From contig NZ_JAVJSQ010000003.1 in assembly GCF_040219335.1 (NCBI RefSeq), forward strand, positions 1-64,000: 64,000 nt of DNA. The letters run 5' to 3'. Below, piece by piece: positions 9,380-45,715 of the stretch. Within the stretch, counting starts at the first letter, position 1, and each line of letters opens with the position of its first letter. The translations under genes were made by a program, and so were the position numbers. Source of the stretch: Gimesia sp. GTDB taxonomy: Bacteria > Planctomycetota > Planctomycetia > Planctomycetales > Planctomycetaceae. The notes beneath the pieces were generated by a model. The model had not been told where the DNA came from. It saw only the letters and a program-made list of their open reading frames with translations, and did no database searches.

Positions 9380-9888
9380 GAAACCTCTCCCATCACCGTA
9401 CCGACTTCGGTTCCCCAGAGCAGTTTGACAATCCAGTACTTTTTCAGCCGCTCAGCCATGATCGGCGTGTACTTTTCGAAGAGGGGGCGCGTCAGTCGAA
9501 AAGCCGGATAGAACAGACAGAGCCCCAGCAACAGGCTGCCCATCACGACGGTATTATTGAAATCGGTCCAGGGAGCCAGCGGGAGTTCATACACGCTTTG
9601 CCAGAATCCCTGTAACGACGGCGCGCTGAGGACATTTTTCCCCAGCAGATGACTCAATGGATCGAGCAAAATACCCAGCCAGGAAAAGACGAGGGTCGCC
9701 AGGGAAGCGGAGCAGAGATTGACCTTGGAACTCGCCAGAATGAACAGCAGCATCAAGGCGATGAGATTATCTTTGGGAACCAGACCGATCACCATGCCCA
9801 TACTGAACCCGAGGGCCAGTTGACGCGGTGAGGAAACGCCAGTGAAGGCGCTGGCCAGAAATCGCAGAGAGCGAAGCCAGTAAGACAT
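9376..9888 (-). CDS. TIGR03546 family small membrane protein
   Basis: A 170-residue integral membrane protein with about four hydrophobic segments (about 28-50, 58-80, 112-130, 150-165) and the Gly-rich phrase 'LALGFSMGMVIGLVPKDN', reminiscent of DUF2062-type membrane proteins. The function is unknown. It is the upstream partner of the TIGR03545 gene and overlaps it by 4 bases, so both products are probably made in fixed ratio and may form a complex. The family assignment rests on the gene pairing as well as sequence. Confidence 0.7.
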   Translation of the reverse strand: MSYWLRSLRFLASAFTGVSSPRQLALGFSMGMVIGLVPKDNLIALMLLFILASSKVNLCSASLATLVFSWLGILLDPLSHLLGKNVLSAPSLQGFWQSVYELPLAPWTDFNNTVVMGSLLLGLCLFYPAFRLTRPLFEKYTPIMAERLKKYWIVKLLWGTEVGTVMGEVS

Positions 9889-9925
9889 TTCGGGGTGAAC
9901 TCCGTTATATCATTGGAGTTAAAAG

Positions 9926-9968
9926 GAATAAAAATTCTGCCTGCCTGCGTAAGAAGGTCAGGCAGAAT
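9926..9968 (-). terminator. Intrinsic terminator after the HEAT-PQQ-CrcB run
   Basis: A perfect 10-bp stem (ATTCTGCCTG at 9934-9943 with CAGGCAGAAT at 9959-9968) closes a 15-base loop. Read on the minus strand it is followed immediately by TTTTTATT. It lies about 180 bases beyond crcB and just before the TIGR03546 gene, so it separates the two transcription units. Confidence 0.65.
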
Positions 9969-10149
9969 CCCCCCTGTTAAGCCTAAGTATCGGCTGAAAG
10001 CGTCGCGCGTCTTAATCGTTATAATCAGAAATTCTTAACATTCGCGGAGATATTACTTAGTGTCACTACTGATTTGAGGCGGTCGAACAGTTCGAAATGG
10101 TATCAGAAAGGCTGAGGAATCCTGGATTTCCCCCCTGTACCGGCCCAGA

Positions 10150-10545
10150 TTATTTCTGAATCCAGAGCATGACGAGCGACCAGCCCAGCCAGACAGCGAA
10201 CAGGCCGACCAGCAGGTTCCCGGCGATGTTGATCAACGCATGATGCATCTCTGCATTCCGCAGCAGACTGACGGTTTCATGGCCGAACGTGGAAAAGGTG
10301 GTCAGTGAGCCCAACATGCCCGTGATCAGAAACAGGCTCACATGTTTATGCACCCACACTGAAGAGTGGATCTGCTTATGCGAGACAATCGCCATCAGAA
10401 TGCCGATCAACAGGCAGCCTGTCGCATTCACCACGAAGGTACCCGCGGGAAATCCGGGGTACTTTCGTGACATGAATTCCGTGATACTGTAGCGCGCAAT
10501 CGCTCCGAAAAATCCACCCAGTCCAACGGCCAGCAGTTGTGACAC
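10150..10545 (-). CDS. crcB: Fluoride ion channel CrcB/FluC
   Basis: A 131-residue protein with four membrane helices and the family signatures GGFFGAIARY (about 10-19), GTFVVNATGC (about 35-45) and GSLTTFSTFGHE (about 78-90). Fluc proteins are dual-topology dimers that let fluoride leave the cytoplasm; the single full-length copy here fits a homodimer. It is the last gene of a leftward run behind a PQQ propeller (71-bp gap). I found no fluoride riboswitch in the gap. Confidence 0.93.
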   Translation of the reverse strand: MSQLLAVGLGGFFGAIARYSITEFMSRKYPGFPAGTFVVNATGCLLIGILMAIVSHKQIHSSVWVHKHVSLFLITGMLGSLTTFSTFGHETVSLLRNAEMHHALINIAGNLLVGLFAVWLGWSLVMLWIQK

Positions 10546-10616
10546 CTGTTATCCCTTTTTTCAGTCTGCTCAGCCTGCTGACACAGGCGTACGAATCGGT
10601 TTGAGTTCTCGGAAGC

Positions 10617-11825
10617 CTACTTGGAAGAGATCTTCCACAGGTGCTTGTCGCTGCGCAGGAACAGAGCGTTATCCGCAATCGCGGGCGTGGCAAGAATCGT
10701 CTCCTTCAGATCGATTTCGCCCGTCTCTTTGCCTTCGTCTGCTCCCACCTGCACCACCTGTAACAGTCCTTTTTCGTTGACCAGATACAGATGCTTGCCG
10801 GCGGCGATCGGAGTCGCACTGAAAGGACCTTTTAACCGCAGACGCCAGATCACTTCGCCATCTTCCGGATTCGCAGAGGTCAATACGCCTGCCCGGTTCA
10901 CGGTGAAGACCTTCTTCTCATACACCAGGGGACTGGCCGTCGCGGGAGAGAGCTTCTGTTCCTGCCAGAGAACCTTGGGAGGCTCGCTGCTGGACCCGGG
11001 TACGAGTGCGGTGAGACCGTTGGAAGGAATATACAGCGTATTGTCTCCGACCGTGGTCGAAGGAATACGGCCGGCTCCCTGCTCGTAGCTCCACGCGGTA
11101 TCTCCCGTTTCGGGATAAATCGCATCCACGCCTTCACTCGACTGCAACAGCACCAGGGTTTCGGCGCTGTCAGAGGCTTTCAGAATCGCGGGCGACGTCC
11201 AGTTGGCAACCCGGGGACGTTTGATTTTCCAGCGGGAGATGCCGGTTTTCACATCCAGGCCGGTGGTGAAAGAATCGTCGTCATTCTCGACGGGTACGAT
11301 CAGGGTCTCACCCACCACGATGGGTGAAGAGGCCATTCCCAGGCTGTTACTCGCATTGGGGAAATCGTGTGACAGTCCGCGGATCCAGAGCAGGTTTCCG
11401 TCCATATCCAGACAGACGACATCATTACTCGAGAATGTGGCGAAAACCCGCTTGCCATCACTGGCGGGAGTCGGCGTTGCCACGCACATTTTGTTATGAC
11501 ACTGTGTCCGTCCCGTTGCCCAGAACTGACGGTCCCACAGCTGCTTGCCGGTCTTCGCATCGAAACAGAGTACGTGCAACTGGTCCTGTTTGAAACCGGT
11601 GGTGCTGGTCAGAAAGACCTTGTCTCCCACGATGATCGGTCCCGAAGCCCCCCGACCTTCCAGATCAGCGGTCCAGGCAATACTCTCCTGGTCGACCAGG
11701 GTCGGCGGTGTATCCGACGTCGCCACATTGTTGGTCAGCGGACCCCGGAACTGCGGCCAGTCGGCTCCACAACACAGACCGATGGCAATCAGAGGCATCA
11801 CAAGTTGAAAGGCACTCTTATTCAT
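10617..11825 (-). CDS. Secreted PQQ-type beta-propeller protein
   Basis: A 402-residue protein with a signal peptide (about 1-20, cleavage near CCGADWPQFRG) followed by repeated propeller blades with 'GKQLWDRQF', 'GNLLWIRG', 'GDTAWSYEQ', 'DGEVIWRLR' tryptophan-docking motifs. The mature start 'DWPQFRGP' is a hallmark of planctomycete propellers annotated as outer membrane protein assembly/PQQ-binding-like. These usually lack dehydrogenase catalytic residues, so a scaffold or binding role in the periplasm is likely. It lies 57 bp downstream of the HEAT-repeat gene and 71 bp upstream of crcB; the three may share a transcript. Confidence 0.8.
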   Translation of the reverse strand: MNKSAFQLVMPLIAIGLCCGADWPQFRGPLTNNVATSDTPPTLVDQESIAWTADLEGRGASGPIIVGDKVFLTSTTGFKQDQLHVLCFDAKTGKQLWDRQFWATGRTQCHNKMCVATPTPASDGKRVFATFSSNDVVCLDMDGNLLWIRGLSHDFPNASNSLGMASSPIVVGETLIVPVENDDDSFTTGLDVKTGISRWKIKRPRVANWTSPAILKASDSAETLVLLQSSEGVDAIYPETGDTAWSYEQGAGRIPSTTVGDNTLYIPSNGLTALVPGSSSEPPKVLWQEQKLSPATASPLVYEKKVFTVNRAGVLTSANPEDGEVIWRLRLKGPFSATPIAAGKHLYLVNEKGLLQVVQVGADEGKETGEIDLKETILATPAIADNALFLRSDKHLWKISSK

Positions 11826-40219: not shown

Positions 40220-40843
40220 TTAATCCCCTGTTTTAGCAGCAGGAATCGGCACACCGCTCCGGGTGAAGGCGATTGCCCGCGAACCGGAAGCCCCCACCAT
40301 GACGGATTCAACCAGAGGCGGTGCAACCTGCTCCTCGGCCATCCAGTTCACGAGAAAATTCGCACCGGAGCCTCCCGTGCTGTCTTTTTCTTCCACCAGG
40401 AATTCAATCGTCTGAAACGGGGCAAGCCTGATTGGCTGGTCCAGATAGACCTTGATCGACTCCCCGTCAGTATCGACATACTTGACTCCGGTGAGGTAGA
40501 CGGGCTGATCCTGATTGATGTTCCGGATACTCAGAGTCGTTTCCAGAAGCAACGGCGATCCGCCATGATAATAGATGTGAGAATAACAGGGGGCATAGAT
40601 CGAACCGCTGCGCGTCATTTTTTCTGAGTCGATTTCGCCTGCCTGGTAACTGGCAAGATCGGGCGGTTCATAGCTGCGCGGCGGTACGAACTTCAATTCG
40701 TGCTCGAAGCGTTCGAAGCGGGTATCGAGGTACACTGCCCCCGCGATCAGCACTAAGGTCACGACTCCCAGCAACAGAAACAGGACGAACCATTTGTCCC
40801 ACAACCACAAAAACCAGTCGGGATATTCGCCTTTATTTCCCAT
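40220..40843 (-). CDS. DUF3124 family membrane-anchored protein
   Basis: A 207-residue protein. One N-terminal membrane helix (about 20-40) is followed by a soluble beta-rich domain (about 60-200) with the DUF3124 phrases 'YSHIYYHGGSPLLLETTLSIRNINQ', 'KVYLDQPIRLAPFQTIEFLVEE', 'SGANFLVNW' and the end 'AIAFTRSGVPI'. No function is established. It sits between the HD protein (149-bp gap) and a sulfatase (55-bp gap) on the same strand. Confidence 0.8.
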   Translation of the reverse strand: MGNKGEYPDWFLWLWDKWFVLFLLLGVVTLVLIAGAVYLDTRFERFEHELKFVPPRSYEPPDLASYQAGEIDSEKMTRSGSIYAPCYSHIYYHGGSPLLLETTLSIRNINQDQPVYLTGVKYVDTDGESIKVYLDQPIRLAPFQTIEFLVEEKDSTGGSGANFLVNWMAEEQVAPPLVESVMVGASGSRAIAFTRSGVPIPAAKTGD

Positions 40844-40992: not shown

Positions 40993-41580
40993 CTATGGCA
41001 TCTGTTTCTGTAACTCATCCAGGCGTGACAGGCAGTTTTTTACCAGCGGGACCAGTCGTTCATCCGACTGACCGGCGGCCTCGATCATGGAATGGTAATA
41101 CTGCACAATCTCTTCCGGCGAGGCGCCGAAGTGCCCCCAGAATTCAGCGCGGTCTTCGGTCTGCAGATCAAACAGCATCGCTTCCAGGTTATGCAGTTTG
41201 TCTGCGAGCTCAATCGCCCGCGCACCGAGCGATGCCTGCTGCATCACTTCAATATGATCCCGCTTGCGATCACGCCAGTTCCGCTTTGCGCCCTCCTGAG
41301 TTTCCTTCTCTTCGGTCATCTCCCTGACGTACTGCAGAACCTCATCTGAAAAGGTTCCCTCCAGATCCTCAAAAGTCAGCGCGGTATCTTCGATCACATC
41401 ATGCAGGGCGGCAGCTGCCAGGATGGATTCCTCATGAAAGCCGGCTTTCACCAGGATCAGACAGACCCCCATCGGATGTGCGATGTAAGGAATTCCGGAC
41501 GACTTGCGTTTTTGAGATTTATGTGCTTCCGCGGCAACCCGAATGGCGTTCTCGACTACCGGAGAGTGAAGTGTATCCAT
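40993..41580 (-). CDS. HD domain protein, small (p)ppGpp hydrolase-like
   Basis: A 195-residue protein with an HD fold of the RelA/SpoT hydrolase type: 'AHKSQKRKSSGIPYIAHPMGV' (His ligand), 'ALHDVIEDT' (His-Asp pair and ED), and 'LADKLHNLEAM' (Asp ligand). No synthetase, TGS or ACT domain is present, so it is a stand-alone small alarmone hydrolase (MESH1-type) candidate that would remove the 3'-pyrophosphate of (p)ppGpp. It starts 15 bp after the ABC-exporter-like gene on the same strand, so the two are very likely co-transcribed. No other alarmone gene lies in the window. Confidence 0.82.
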   Translation of the reverse strand: MDTLHSPVVENAIRVAAEAHKSQKRKSSGIPYIAHPMGVCLILVKAGFHEESILAAAALHDVIEDTALTFEDLEGTFSDEVLQYVREMTEEKETQEGAKRNWRDRKRDHIEVMQQASLGARAIELADKLHNLEAMLFDLQTEDRAEFWGHFGASPEEIVQYYHSMIEAAGQSDERLVPLVKNCLSRLDELQKQMP

Positions 41581-41595
41581 GCTGCAAACTCTGGT

Positions 41596-43713
41596 TTAAC
41601 GTTGTTCGATCGGAGTATCCTGTGAGTGCCGGAACTGGTTAAATCGTGTGTACTCCCAGTGACGATACAGGGCGGATTTCTTCAACAGGTTCGATTGACT
41701 GTCGACCGCTTCCACTTTGCCTTCGTGAATCATGACGACCTGATCGACGCGTCGCAGGGTCGTGATACGGGAAGGAATGACCAGCACGGTCCGGTTCTGG
41801 AAAATCCGGGAGTAGGCATCTTCGAGCAGCGTTTTGGTATCTTCGTCGAGCGGCCCTTCCGGTTCTTCGATGATCATCAGAGCCGGCTTTCGCAACAGGG
41901 CGCGGGCCAGTCCTAACCGGAAACACTCACCCGTTGTCAGATCTTCCCCGTGCTGCCCCAGAACGGTTTCGTAACCTTGAGGCAGCCCCTGGATAAACTG
42001 ATGCGCGTGTGATTCTTTGGAAGCCGCAATGACTTCCTGCAGCGAATACCGTTCATCGCCACAGCGAATGTTGTCCTTGACGGTTCCGGTGAGACAGGGA
42101 TCGTTACCGCTCACAAAAATCGCTTCCGCCCGCAGAGACTCCAGGGTCACCCACGCCGTGTCTTCGCCGTCGATCAGGACCCGGCCCGAGCGGGGCTCAA
42201 TAAAGCGGGGTACCAGGAAACTGACAGCGCGTGGGGCGAGTTTCTCCAGCGATACCAGTGCGGTTGTCGAACCGGCGGGAATTTTCAGATCAAAGCCATT
42301 CAAGATCGGAGGTGAACCAGGCGTGAGACTGTAAGTGACGTTTTCGAACTGTAGTGCTGTCGACATTGGCTCCAGAAATTTCGCACCGACTGCCTGCCCG
42401 ACTTCGGGGATCAGGTTCAGATAACGATAAATCGAGCTGGCAGCCACAGTGGATTCTTCGCGCACACGGAACAGTTCATGCAAACCATTGACCGGCAGGT
42501 AGAAGAAGCCGAAGATTCCCACCACCAGCACCGCAGCAGAGAGCGGCAGACTATCCGGATTCACGAGGACTTTATACCCCACCAGAAAGACAACCAGGCA
42601 CGAACAGAAGACGGCCAGGCCTCGGGCGATACGATGTCCCCAGCCTTCAACGCGTTTCAGCTTTTCCAGGTTTTCGGTGTATTTCGCCAGATGCTTCTGA
42701 AACTGTTCATGCTCCGGGTTTTCCATTCCATAGCCGCGAACCAGGCGTGTGCTCCGCAGATTTTCAGCCAGCAGGGAAAGTTCGGTATCGATGGTGACCA
42801 GTGTTCTGGCATGCTGCAAATCATAATCTTTGCGATGCTGCATCAGAAAATACCAGGCTGCGGCCAGTGGAATGATGCACTGCAGCGTTAAACGCCAGTC
42901 GATGGAAACGGCAATCAACAGCAGAATCGCCAGCGTCATAGTGTGCCGCGTCAAACCGTAGACCCAGTGGAAGACACCGTTCTGTACGGTTCCCACATCC
43001 TGAATGAACAGGTGAAACGCCTGATCGGTCTCTTTCCCCGACAGATCCCCGGGCCCCAGGCGGAGCGCCTGGCGATGAATCATATTGCGTAACGTTGTCG
43101 AAATATGATGGGAAACTTTCAGGCTCCTCAGTCGGCATCGCCAGCGGATCAACACCCGGATGCTGGCCACAACCAGCGCGACTAAAATCAGTGTGAATAA
43201 CGCGGACTGATTCTGCTGCAGCAAGGGGACACGCTGATACACGCTTTTCATGATCCCCAGATGGTATTTGGAATGCGTCCACCAGACGGAGGGCAGAATC
43301 CCCGTATCAGCAAGAATCAAGCGATCTGGAGGAGTCGCTGGTTGTGCGTCCGCGGGAGCCGCTTTCGGCTCTGGTTCGGGCGCGGGCTTTTCTTCCGCGG
43401 CGGCAACTTCGTCAGTATCGGCTTTCGGCTCAGCCGGTTCCTCGGATGGTTCGGTGGCTTCAGCAGGTGCTTCGGGTTCGGGACTGGCCAGGATTTCCTG
43501 CAGTTGCTGAACCCGCTCTACCCCCTGCACCGAAATCCGCCCACGATGATCCAGCAGATCCAGGATCAGAAAAAACAGGATGAGCAGAAACGCCAGCAAG
43601 AGGCCATTGATGAACGACCAGAACACAACGGATCTGGCAGACCCACGAAAAAACTCCCGCGCGGGGAACGCGCGATGGAATGCGTTGGGCTGACGATTTG
43701 ACACAGGACCCAC
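41596..43713 (-). CDS. ABC exporter-like protein with degenerate nucleotide-binding domain
   Basis: A 705-residue protein with the layout of a half-ABC exporter: TM1 (about 30-50), then an extracytoplasmic Pro/Glu/Ala-rich insert (about 70-135), five further helices (about 170-430) and a nucleotide-binding domain (about 445-690). The fold is clearly kept: FENVTY, 'SGRVLIDGEDT', 'LTGTVKDNI', 'LGLARALLRKP'. The catalytic motifs are not. Walker A reads SLEKLAPRA instead of GxxGxGK(S/T); the Q-loop Gln is Gly (SGND); the LSGGQ signature is LTTGE; Walker B ends IIEEP rather than LDEP; and the H-loop His is Ser (PSRIT). The start is GTG 43713, the only candidate before TM1. It follows an ABC-2 permease by 46 bp and precedes the HD gene by 15 bp. 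See findings. Confidence 0.85.
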   Translation of the reverse strand: MGPVSNRQPNAFHRAFPAREFFRGSARSVVFWSFINGLLLAFLLILFFLILDLLDHRGRISVQGVERVQQLQEILASPEPEAPAEATEPSEEPAEPKADTDEVAAAEEKPAPEPEPKAAPADAQPATPPDRLILADTGILPSVWWTHSKYHLGIMKSVYQRVPLLQQNQSALFTLILVALVVASIRVLIRWRCRLRSLKVSHHISTTLRNMIHRQALRLGPGDLSGKETDQAFHLFIQDVGTVQNGVFHWVYGLTRHTMTLAILLLIAVSIDWRLTLQCIIPLAAAWYFLMQHRKDYDLQHARTLVTIDTELSLLAENLRSTRLVRGYGMENPEHEQFQKHLAKYTENLEKLKRVEGWGHRIARGLAVFCSCLVVFLVGYKVLVNPDSLPLSAAVLVVGIFGFFYLPVNGLHELFRVREESTVAASSIYRYLNLIPEVGQAVGAKFLEPMSTALQFENVTYSLTPGSPPILNGFDLKIPAGSTTALVSLEKLAPRAVSFLVPRFIEPRSGRVLIDGEDTAWVTLESLRAEAIFVSGNDPCLTGTVKDNIRCGDERYSLQEVIAASKESHAHQFIQGLPQGYETVLGQHGEDLTTGECFRLGLARALLRKPALMIIEEPEGPLDEDTKTLLEDAYSRIFQNRTVLVIPSRITTLRRVDQVVMIHEGKVEAVDSQSNLLKKSALYRHWEYTRFNQFRHSQDTPIEQR

Positions 43714-43759: not shown

Positions 43760-44686
43760 TCAGGCAAGGTCCCGGTCTTCGAAAAGGATGAAGGCAACCA
43801 GAATCGCAATTCCGGAATAGAGCAGGCAGCTTAATGCGGAATGACCGATATAGACTGGTGGAACCACGGTTCCCGTTGCGACCGCTGGTGACATATTGAA
43901 GTTATCCAGGTTGGGCAGAATCGTAGCAATCAGCTGCCCGGTAAACTTCACGAATTCCAGCCCCTCTGCCTTGGCCTGAACCAGATTGGGAGTGAGGTGG
44001 CCAATGATATAGACGCCAAAACAGATAATCATGTTGACCATCATGGGCAGACGGGTCGAGATCGCCACGCTGATGGCGGCCAGAATGGCGACTTCCATAT
44101 AGATCAGCAGAATCCCGGGCAGAATCAGCCAGACCGCAGCCATCCGCTCGGCGTGCGTTGGTGGTTCCTGGGCCGCTTCGCGGGCATCATAGCCGACTTT
44201 GAAATAAACCAGCAGCAGGAAAGTAATCACCATGGGCAACATCAGCCAGACGACGGCCTTCAGAATTCCCAGGTATTTCCCGACGATAAACTGACGACGG
44301 TTGATCGGCTTTGACAACAGCGTCATGGCCGTCTTACCTTCAATTTCATCAGCGATGCTGGTACTCGCCGACCACACGGCCAGCAACAGACTGCAGATCA
44401 GGATCGTTGCAAGACCACAGTCCATCAGCATCTTGACGTCATCCCCCATCGAAAAGAACGGGAGAAACGTATTTAACAGCAGCAGGATTAAACCGAGTGC
44501 CATCAGCAAGAGGAACACGGGCTGGCGAATGGCTTCCTTCGTGGTCGCCCTGGCGATTACCCCCGCCTGGGTCATCGAAGTCACACCGAACAGGAGTACA
44601 AAATAGATTGCAACTCCGATTCCGGTAATCCACCATTGCACTGTCAGATTTGTCGTCTCAGCAGCCAATACCAGCAGGTTTCCCAT
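43760..44686 (-). CDS. ABC-2 type transporter permease
   Basis: A 308-residue membrane protein with six to eight hydrophobic segments (about 15-40, 55-75, 85-105, 145-170, 190-215, 220-240, 280-300). The phrase 'STSIADEIEGKTAMTLLSKPINRRQFIVGKYLGIL' (about 107-140) is the hallmark of ABC-2 permeases. The partner ATPase is unknown: the adjacent downstream ABC-like protein has no intact ATP-binding motifs, and the only intact ABC ATPase in the window lies 11 kb away with its own permease. First gene of the leftward run. Confidence 0.83.
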   Translation of the reverse strand: MGNLLVLAAETTNLTVQWWITGIGVAIYFVLLFGVTSMTQAGVIARATTKEAIRQPVFLLLMALGLILLLLNTFLPFFSMGDDVKMLMDCGLATILICSLLLAVWSASTSIADEIEGKTAMTLLSKPINRRQFIVGKYLGILKAVVWLMLPMVITFLLLVYFKVGYDAREAAQEPPTHAERMAAVWLILPGILLIYMEVAILAAISVAISTRLPMMVNMIICFGVYIIGHLTPNLVQAKAEGLEFVKFTGQLIATILPNLDNFNMSPAVATGTVVPPVYIGHSALSCLLYSGIAILVAFILFEDRDLA

Positions 44687-45077: not shown

Positions 45078-45389
45078 TCAATATTCGATGGTGAAACTTT
45101 GACGATCAGAATCGGCCGGGGCCCCTTGAATCGATACATCCGTCACATTCGTTGCGAATGTCAGCATCATATCGTCGAAAAACCGATCGAGCACTGACTG
45201 ATCACGGGCCTGCGCGACCAGTTCCACGGTTCCATCGGGTAGATTTTTGACGAATCCGGTAACAGGGTAACGCTCCGCCAACTGAGTTGTGCGATATCGA
45301 AACCCGACGCCCTGCACCCGCCCCGCATAAATCGCGCGTAGACTGATCAGATCCGTCGAAGAACCGGACTGATGAGGATCAGCACACAT
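45078..45389 (-). CDS. acyP: Acylphosphatase
   Basis: A 103-residue enzyme that hydrolyses acyl-phosphates such as acetyl- or carbamoyl-phosphate. The signature [10 protein letters not shown] (about 22-31) has the catalytic Arg, and '[16 protein letters not shown]' carries the catalytic Asn. The C-terminus 'QSFTIEY' is typical. ATG 45389 has GAGAGGA about 10 bases upstream; a TTG at 45410 would add seven residues. It lies 122 bp downstream of csrA on the same strand. Confidence 0.93.
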
Positions 45390-45511
45390 GGCCGATATCC
45401 TCTCTATCAAGAGACCGTAAATTAATGAGCGAAAAAACGTTGATCGGAGACAGTACGATCAGAAGGGACTTTAAGCCCTGAGAAATGAATAGAGACTTCG
45501 GTCACACTGCT

Positions 45512-45715
45512 TTAATGCGAAGAAGGCTCTTCAGTCAACTGGCCTGATTCCGGCAAGTCTGAAAAGTCGATACACAATTCTTCGCGAACAATGCTCATGC
45601 TGCGCGGAGCATCAATTCCTAATCGCACAGAATTGGGACCAATTCGAACAATCGTCAGGGTTACGTCATCGCCAATCCGAATCCGCTCGCCGGGCTTACG
45701 TGATAATACAAGCAT
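45512..45715 (-). CDS. csrA: Carbon storage regulator CsrA
   Basis: A 67-residue RNA-binding protein that represses translation at GGA motifs. The full family start MLVLSRKPGERIRIGDD, the RIGPNSVRLGIDAPR core and the 'IVREEL' strand are present. In many flagellated bacteria and planctomycetes CsrA controls motility and carbon storage. The short acidic tail is normal. Its own leader holds several GGA sites (next entry), so autoregulation is likely. AAGGA is 10-11 bases before the ATG. Confidence 0.95.
   Translation of the reverse strand: MLVLSRKPGERIRIGDDVTLTIVRIGPNSVRLGIDAPRSMSIVREELCIDFSDLPESGQLTEEPSSH

Follow-up and report, generated by a model that had tools for sequence, protein, structure and literature searches.

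What an ABC exporter can do once its ATP-binding motifs have been replaced, in a reading frame that has stayed intact, is the question raised by this locus. The window (the whole stretch of 64,000 nucleotides of Gimesia sp. DNA analysed here) carries on its reverse strand an ATP-dead half-ABC exporter (41596..43713) and, directly upstream of it, a gene for an ABC-2 permease. Degenerate ABC sites are known, but in the part of a review available to us they are described beside a working site (PMC7756269), and the accessible portion of the open-access literature contains no description of this exporter family, or of an exporter that has lost both sides of the ATP site; within the same scope, work on transposon essentiality or proteomics in planctomycetes supplied nothing of use for this gene. 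With both sides gone and a nucleotide-binding domain (NBD) about as well conserved as in a functional pump, the family is a natural setting in which to ask what such a domain may do apart from ATP use. Since it recurs beside an ABC-2 permease, a mixed complex can also be tested directly.

The exporter gene and its ATP site

The exporter ORF extends over 705 codons from a GTG, with 0 internal stops, and encodes an ABC_membrane domain (Pfam, E 7e-12) followed by an ABC_tran domain (E 4e-8) in a single chain and in the usual order, the combination that characterizes a half-transporter; the intact half-exporter frame described in an earlier note on this DNA is thereby borne out. The existence of homologues of 702 amino acids suggests that translation may begin three codons downstream of this GTG, possibly at 43704. 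Domain order and NBD core are those of the homodimeric MsbA-type (type IV) exporters, and profile matches of the protein in the PDB include MsbA and Sav1866, ranked below eukaryotic ABCB proteins. In contrast to MsbA-type exporters, however, its ATP-binding motifs are not intact, and its best NCBIfam match, MsbA (TIGR02203), reaches 200.6 bits, far under the family cutoff of 602. NCBI has named homologues ‘multidrug export ATP-binding/permease protein’ or ‘ABC transporter ATP-binding protein’, labels that probably mislead where this family is concerned.

The transmembrane region comprises residues 33-415 (42469..43617, reverse strand), with the Pfam ABC_membrane match at residues 167-389; simple hydropathy recovers five transmembrane segments, against the six of a type IV half-exporter. 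A Pro/Glu/Ala-rich insert after TM1, pointed out in the same note, is real: it occupies residues 59-137 (43303..43539, reverse strand), and 44 of its 79 residues are P, E or A. The pseudo-NBD occupies residues 431-690 (41644..42423, reverse strand).

Alignment with canonical exporters locates the altered positions, all on the reverse strand: Leu at A-loop position 463 (42325..42327), SLEKLAPR in place of GxxGxGK(S/T) at the Walker A position (residues 488-495, 42229..42252), Gly at Q-loop position 536 (42106..42108), LTTGE in place of LSGGQ at the signature position (residues 592-596, 41926..41940), and Ser at H-loop position 648 (41770..41772). In the Walker B region (residues 612-617, 41863..41880), Glu616 stands in place of Asp, next to a retained catalytic Glu617; D-loop Asp623, Arg649 and the second signature glycine, Gly595, are also retained. 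Non-canonical residues thus stand at the A-loop, at Walker A, at the Q-loop, at the signature, at the Walker B Asp and at the H-loop, but the earlier claim of replacement at every motif is slightly too strong: the catalytic glutamate and one glycine of the signature remain, as does the D-loop Asp, and that note mentions none of the three.

Motif loss and selection across the class

To set these changes against the rest of the class, 101 exporter sequences were gathered (95 permease-linked and 6 others), from which 3 motif-less fragments were dropped to leave 98; here and below, the genomes sampled were drawn from larger groups, and families are numbered, f1 being that of the window. Sixteen canonical exporters from planctomycete loci inside and outside the class, which serve as a yardstick because they were picked with their motifs in view and so provide no test, show the canonical residue in 15 or all 16 cases at the motif positions. 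Neither GxxGxGK(S/T) nor LSGGQ is present in any of the 98 informative class sequences, the window's included. At the Walker A position, Gly491 and Gly493 are each kept in 0/98, Lys494 in 32/98 and Ser/Thr495 in 3/98; the A-loop aromatic residue is found in one of 85 family members, against 16/16 canonical exporters. The signature retains Ser in 5/98, the first glycine (Gly594) in 0/98 and the second in 61/98, while the Walker B Asp survives in a single sequence of the 98 and is replaced by Glu in 84, so that the canonical Asp and Glu pair is not found as a family feature. The Q-loop Gln is kept in 37/98 and the H-loop His in 29/98, and the catalytic Glu617 and Arg649 in nearly all (96/98 and 93/98). 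Of 11 further exporter loci, from genomes without the ATP-dead family, the ten read in the right frame have canonical motifs; the eleventh, L285 of G335, was read in a wrong one.

The losses are distributed unevenly among families. Members of f2 keep the Q-loop Gln in 23/26, the H-loop His in 22/26 and the Walker A Lys in 20/26, whereas in f1 the corresponding figures are 0/44, 1/44 and 0/44. This difference in retention suggests that the losses were layered, in which case the phosphate-loop glycines, A-loop and signature would have gone first, with the sensors following later in f1.

In a tree built without the motif columns, 96 family members separate from the 16 canonical exporters with an SH-aLRT value of 100 (short search, no bootstrap); some divergent members of f2, f3 and f5 sit on long branches and are unsurely placed. 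Degenerate motifs are likewise found in 118 of the 120 homologues listed (the best 120 of 347). One exception, P0029, is truncated; the other, P0027 (688 amino acids, on a 4.4 kb contig), is the sole listed homologue with canonical motifs. The membrane half of P0027 is near P0013 (from a cluster named G. maris) and its NBD resembles that of a canonical Gimesia exporter, with the switch near the start of the NBD; it is a probable chimera, a natural domain swap being the alternative.

Comparison of the window genome, which its named relatives also mark as a Gimesia, with G001, G012, G005 and G009 (in the last of which synonymous sites are near saturation) gave dN/dS values of 0.030, 0.034, 0.058 and 0.037 for the exporter NBD. 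The corresponding domain of a canonical paralogue gave, in the same order, 0.041, 0.029, 0.036 and 0.039. The exporter transmembrane region gave 0.009-0.042 in these comparisons, and the ABC-2 permease 0 to 0.016. The Pro/Glu/Ala-rich loop is the fastest-evolving part of the protein (0.20-0.38) and ranges in length from 4 to 91 residues among the f1 rows that cover it; it is therefore not a defining feature. Positions conserved in at least 85% of the family lie mostly in the NBD (for example R503, P507, G510, S526, R528, N548, G580, Y581, R604 and E617-P618). NBD positions distant from the ATP site remain fixed, and several NBD states are specific to the family: E616 (Asp in 16/16 canonical exporters), P618 (Ala in 14/16), K566, H569, D632 and R636. 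Judged from these substitution patterns, the pseudo-NBD is constrained, though not for ATP contact.

The two comparisons proposed in the earlier note, of the motifs across orthologues and of dN/dS, therefore yield shared loss, strong purifying selection and no decay. That note had also named what would undo its reading, namely orthologues that keep the motifs, or a sequencing or assembly error. The orthologues do not keep them, and the identical kind of motif change appears in separately assembled genomes; recurrence in relatives, together with the low NBD dN/dS, rules out both sequencing error and recent decay.

The ABC-2 permease gene and the possible roles of the exporter

The gene lying 46 bp before the exporter start (43760..44686, reverse strand) encodes an ABC-2 permease, which belongs to PF12679 by Pfam score (34.8 bits against a cutoff of 27.2). 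Across 43 loci chosen by exporter hits it is the commonest neighbour, lying directly upstream on the same strand and clustered in 33 genomes; the next most shared neighbour clusters reach 14. Because that set was picked by the exporter itself, 97 usable loci were also fetched by permease hits. In these, the exporter lies directly downstream in 18/20 f1, 20/20 f2 and 17/23 f3 loci, and is linked in 3/34 loci of other families (58/97 overall). The exporter-chosen set has 37/43 linked, which brings the two sets to 95/140, and the exporter is the downstream gene in 95/95. G210 and G229 (f1), G244, G256 and G277 (f3), and three of the four f64 genomes have the two genes at separate places.

A class-wide profile applied to 148 genomes separated ATP-dead exporters, at 520 bits or more, from the other listed matches, at 469 or less; the 520-bit cutoff is conservative, as linked degenerate copies in G055, G252, G296 and G304 score lower. 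Among the matches listed, an exporter above the cutoff is present in at least 101 of the 148 genomes (f1 36/37, f2 34/37, f3 23/32, f4 2/3, f6 1/1, f64 4/4, f70 1/2), and none is found among them in f5 (16 genomes), f7 (3), f65 (2), f66, f67 (6), f68, f69, f71 or f72; the f5 genome G304 has its one copy below the cutoff, linked to the permease. The permease occurs in 144/148 genomes, including all 101 with an exporter above the cutoff, and 43 of the 144 have no exporter above it among the matches listed. Since almost every genome of the class has a permease, its co-presence with the exporter genome by genome says little. The four genomes without a permease at E 1e-10 (G306, G269, G297 and G335, with weak matches of 4e-7 or worse only) are also without the exporter (hypergeometric value 0.009), but three of them come from families without any genome at the exporter cutoff among the matches listed, so that the case for co-loss is that of G306. 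This genome, 99% complete, is alone among the 37 of f1 in lacking the exporter, among the matches listed, and alone in lacking the permease; it has two other exporters, both canonical.

The permease has no sequence match in the PDB at E 1 or better. Its cytoplasmic loop carries the motif E(I/V)(E/D)G(K/R)TA.T.(L/M)SKP in 16/16 aligned orthologues, 11 of which share the exact end FEDRDLA. A loop of this kind is where the ATPase docks in ABC-2 permeases. In contrast to other PF12679 permeases, that of the window has no ABC ATPase gene beside it among the ten window proteins scanned, and no ATPase with canonical motifs lies within three ORFs in the 16 of 20 class loci or the 15 of 20 outside-class loci in which the permease was placed; at L162, one ATPase is encoded four ORFs from the permease, on the other strand. 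Given the conserved loop and the docking role of such loops, an unlinked ATPase and docking of the pseudo-NBD at this loop are both possible.

The explanation we prefer, and to which we give an even chance, is that the exporter, without hydrolysing ATP, serves as an accessory (or structural) subunit in a complex with the ABC-2 permease encoded just upstream, the argument being carried by gene linkage. Exporter and permease would form one complex, in which the pseudo-NBD would offer a surface for docking or regulation instead of acting as a motor; a step driven by ATP would depend on an ATPase encoded elsewhere, unless the complex works without ATP. An ABC exporter fold that serves a different membrane protein has a counterpart in SUR1 of KATP channels, as described in the part of the source available (PMC5790381); SUR1, however, responds to nucleotides, whereas the partner proposed here is an ABC-2 permease and regulation is a proposal. 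The earlier note had offered two interpretations, of which a structural or regulatory ABC protein is the better fit as a predicted role; its other suggestion, half of a heterodimer, is weakened by the loss of the signature and by a companion that is an ABC-2 permease.

That half-exporter reading deserves consideration nonetheless, as the window genome holds two other full-length exporters with canonical motifs, one of which could be the intact partner encoded elsewhere. Non-canonical NBD residues under selection are a trait shared with heterodimeric exporters that have one degenerate site (TM287/288, TAP, TmrAB, BmrCD and, as the extreme, Pdr5); such sites are common in heterodimers, and Pdr5 is changed in all motifs of one site, according to the available part of the review cited above (PMC7756269). 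As far as that part goes, however, the degenerate site of a heterodimer pairs with a canonical site and still binds ATP, and the partner's intact composite site needs the signature of the degenerate half (PMC7756269). The window family has lost the signature side as well as the Walker side, LSGGQ being absent in 98/98, and its linked gene belongs to another permease class. An intact exporter partner next door, where that of a heterodimer usually lies, was sought and seen at one of 43 loci, that of G044, where other exporter-like ORFs, at least one of them canonical, lie nearby; no half-exporter is adjacent in the window, and the conserved neighbour is the ABC-2 permease instead. We regard a heterodimer as improbable. 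Somewhat less so, although still unlikely, is an ATP-independent transporter, in which the dead exporter would carry a substrate of its own, through coupling to protons or by facilitated diffusion, while the pseudo-NBDs hold the dimer together. There is a precedent in MsbA: in the part of the study available, ethidium is still moved, with a pH gradient, by MsbA that lacks the NBD, and a mutant without three acidic membrane residues, one of them in TM1, is inactive (PMC4979069). The exporter keeps Asp52, in or near TM1 at its outer end, in 100/107 aligned homologues, and its transmembrane region is under the strong selection noted above. Class-wide, however, Asp52 is found in 32/46 f1 and 15/23 f3 rows and does not figure among the residues common in f2, no other charged residue in the transmembrane zone reaches 80% in f1, and independent transport leaves the tie to the permease unexplained.

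It is also conceivable, if distinctly improbable, that the pseudo-NBD still has some unusual mode of binding a nucleotide or other ligand and serves as a sensor. Retention of Glu617 and Arg649 in almost all sequences is in keeping with this, as are the Walker A Lys, Q-loop Gln or H-loop His kept by f2 and some f3 members; the loss of both phosphate-loop glycines in 98/98, and of the A-loop aromatic residue in 84/85, argues against it. Decay toward a pseudogene, which the simultaneous alteration of all motifs and the very divergent, long-branched members of f2, f3 and f5 (few in number) might bring to mind, we consider refuted for the window lineage: the frame is intact in relatives, NBD dN/dS is 0.03-0.06, and the loss is common to several families. 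Neither a broken frame nor relaxed selection, the marks of a pseudogene, was found. Beyond the accessory-subunit explanation itself, we put forward tentatively, as a possibility in which we place less than even trust, that a complete exporter abandoned ATP early in the evolution of these planctomycetes and was taken on as a companion by an ABC-2 permease, in a mixed type IV and ABC-2 complex without an ATPase of its own. If true, this would be a class of ABC machinery without a motor, built on a type IV plus ABC-2 membrane complex.

Other genes at the locus and its relatives

Directly downstream of the exporter lies an HD-domain gene (SpoT-like hydrolase region; 40993-41580, reverse strand), found in this position in 11/43 loci, all of f1, and followed by a gene for a DUF3124 protein (40220-40843, reverse strand), in the same place in 6/43 loci. 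Upstream of the permease and on the same strand is an acylphosphatase gene (45078-45410, reverse strand; 14/43 loci), beyond which a 67-amino-acid ORF (45512-45715, reverse strand) resembles CsrA by eye. At L054, the ORF at 9870-10682 encodes an inositol-monophosphatase family protein, whose cluster supplies the gene after the exporter in 4 f3 loci.

Six permeases from f5, f66, f67, f68 and f71 (L152, L240, L159, L170, L163 and L162) have about 200 extra residues separating the first helix from the ABC-2 core, a region without a Pfam match in the three tested; these five families show no exporter above the cutoff among the matches listed. Outside the class, where 20 loci were fetched and 15 placed, six of the placed loci (L259, L260, L263, L265, L268 and L269) show a permease homologue followed on the same strand by a 241-amino-acid protein, which at L259 is a calcineurin-like phosphoesterase by Pfam and in the other five is similar by eye.
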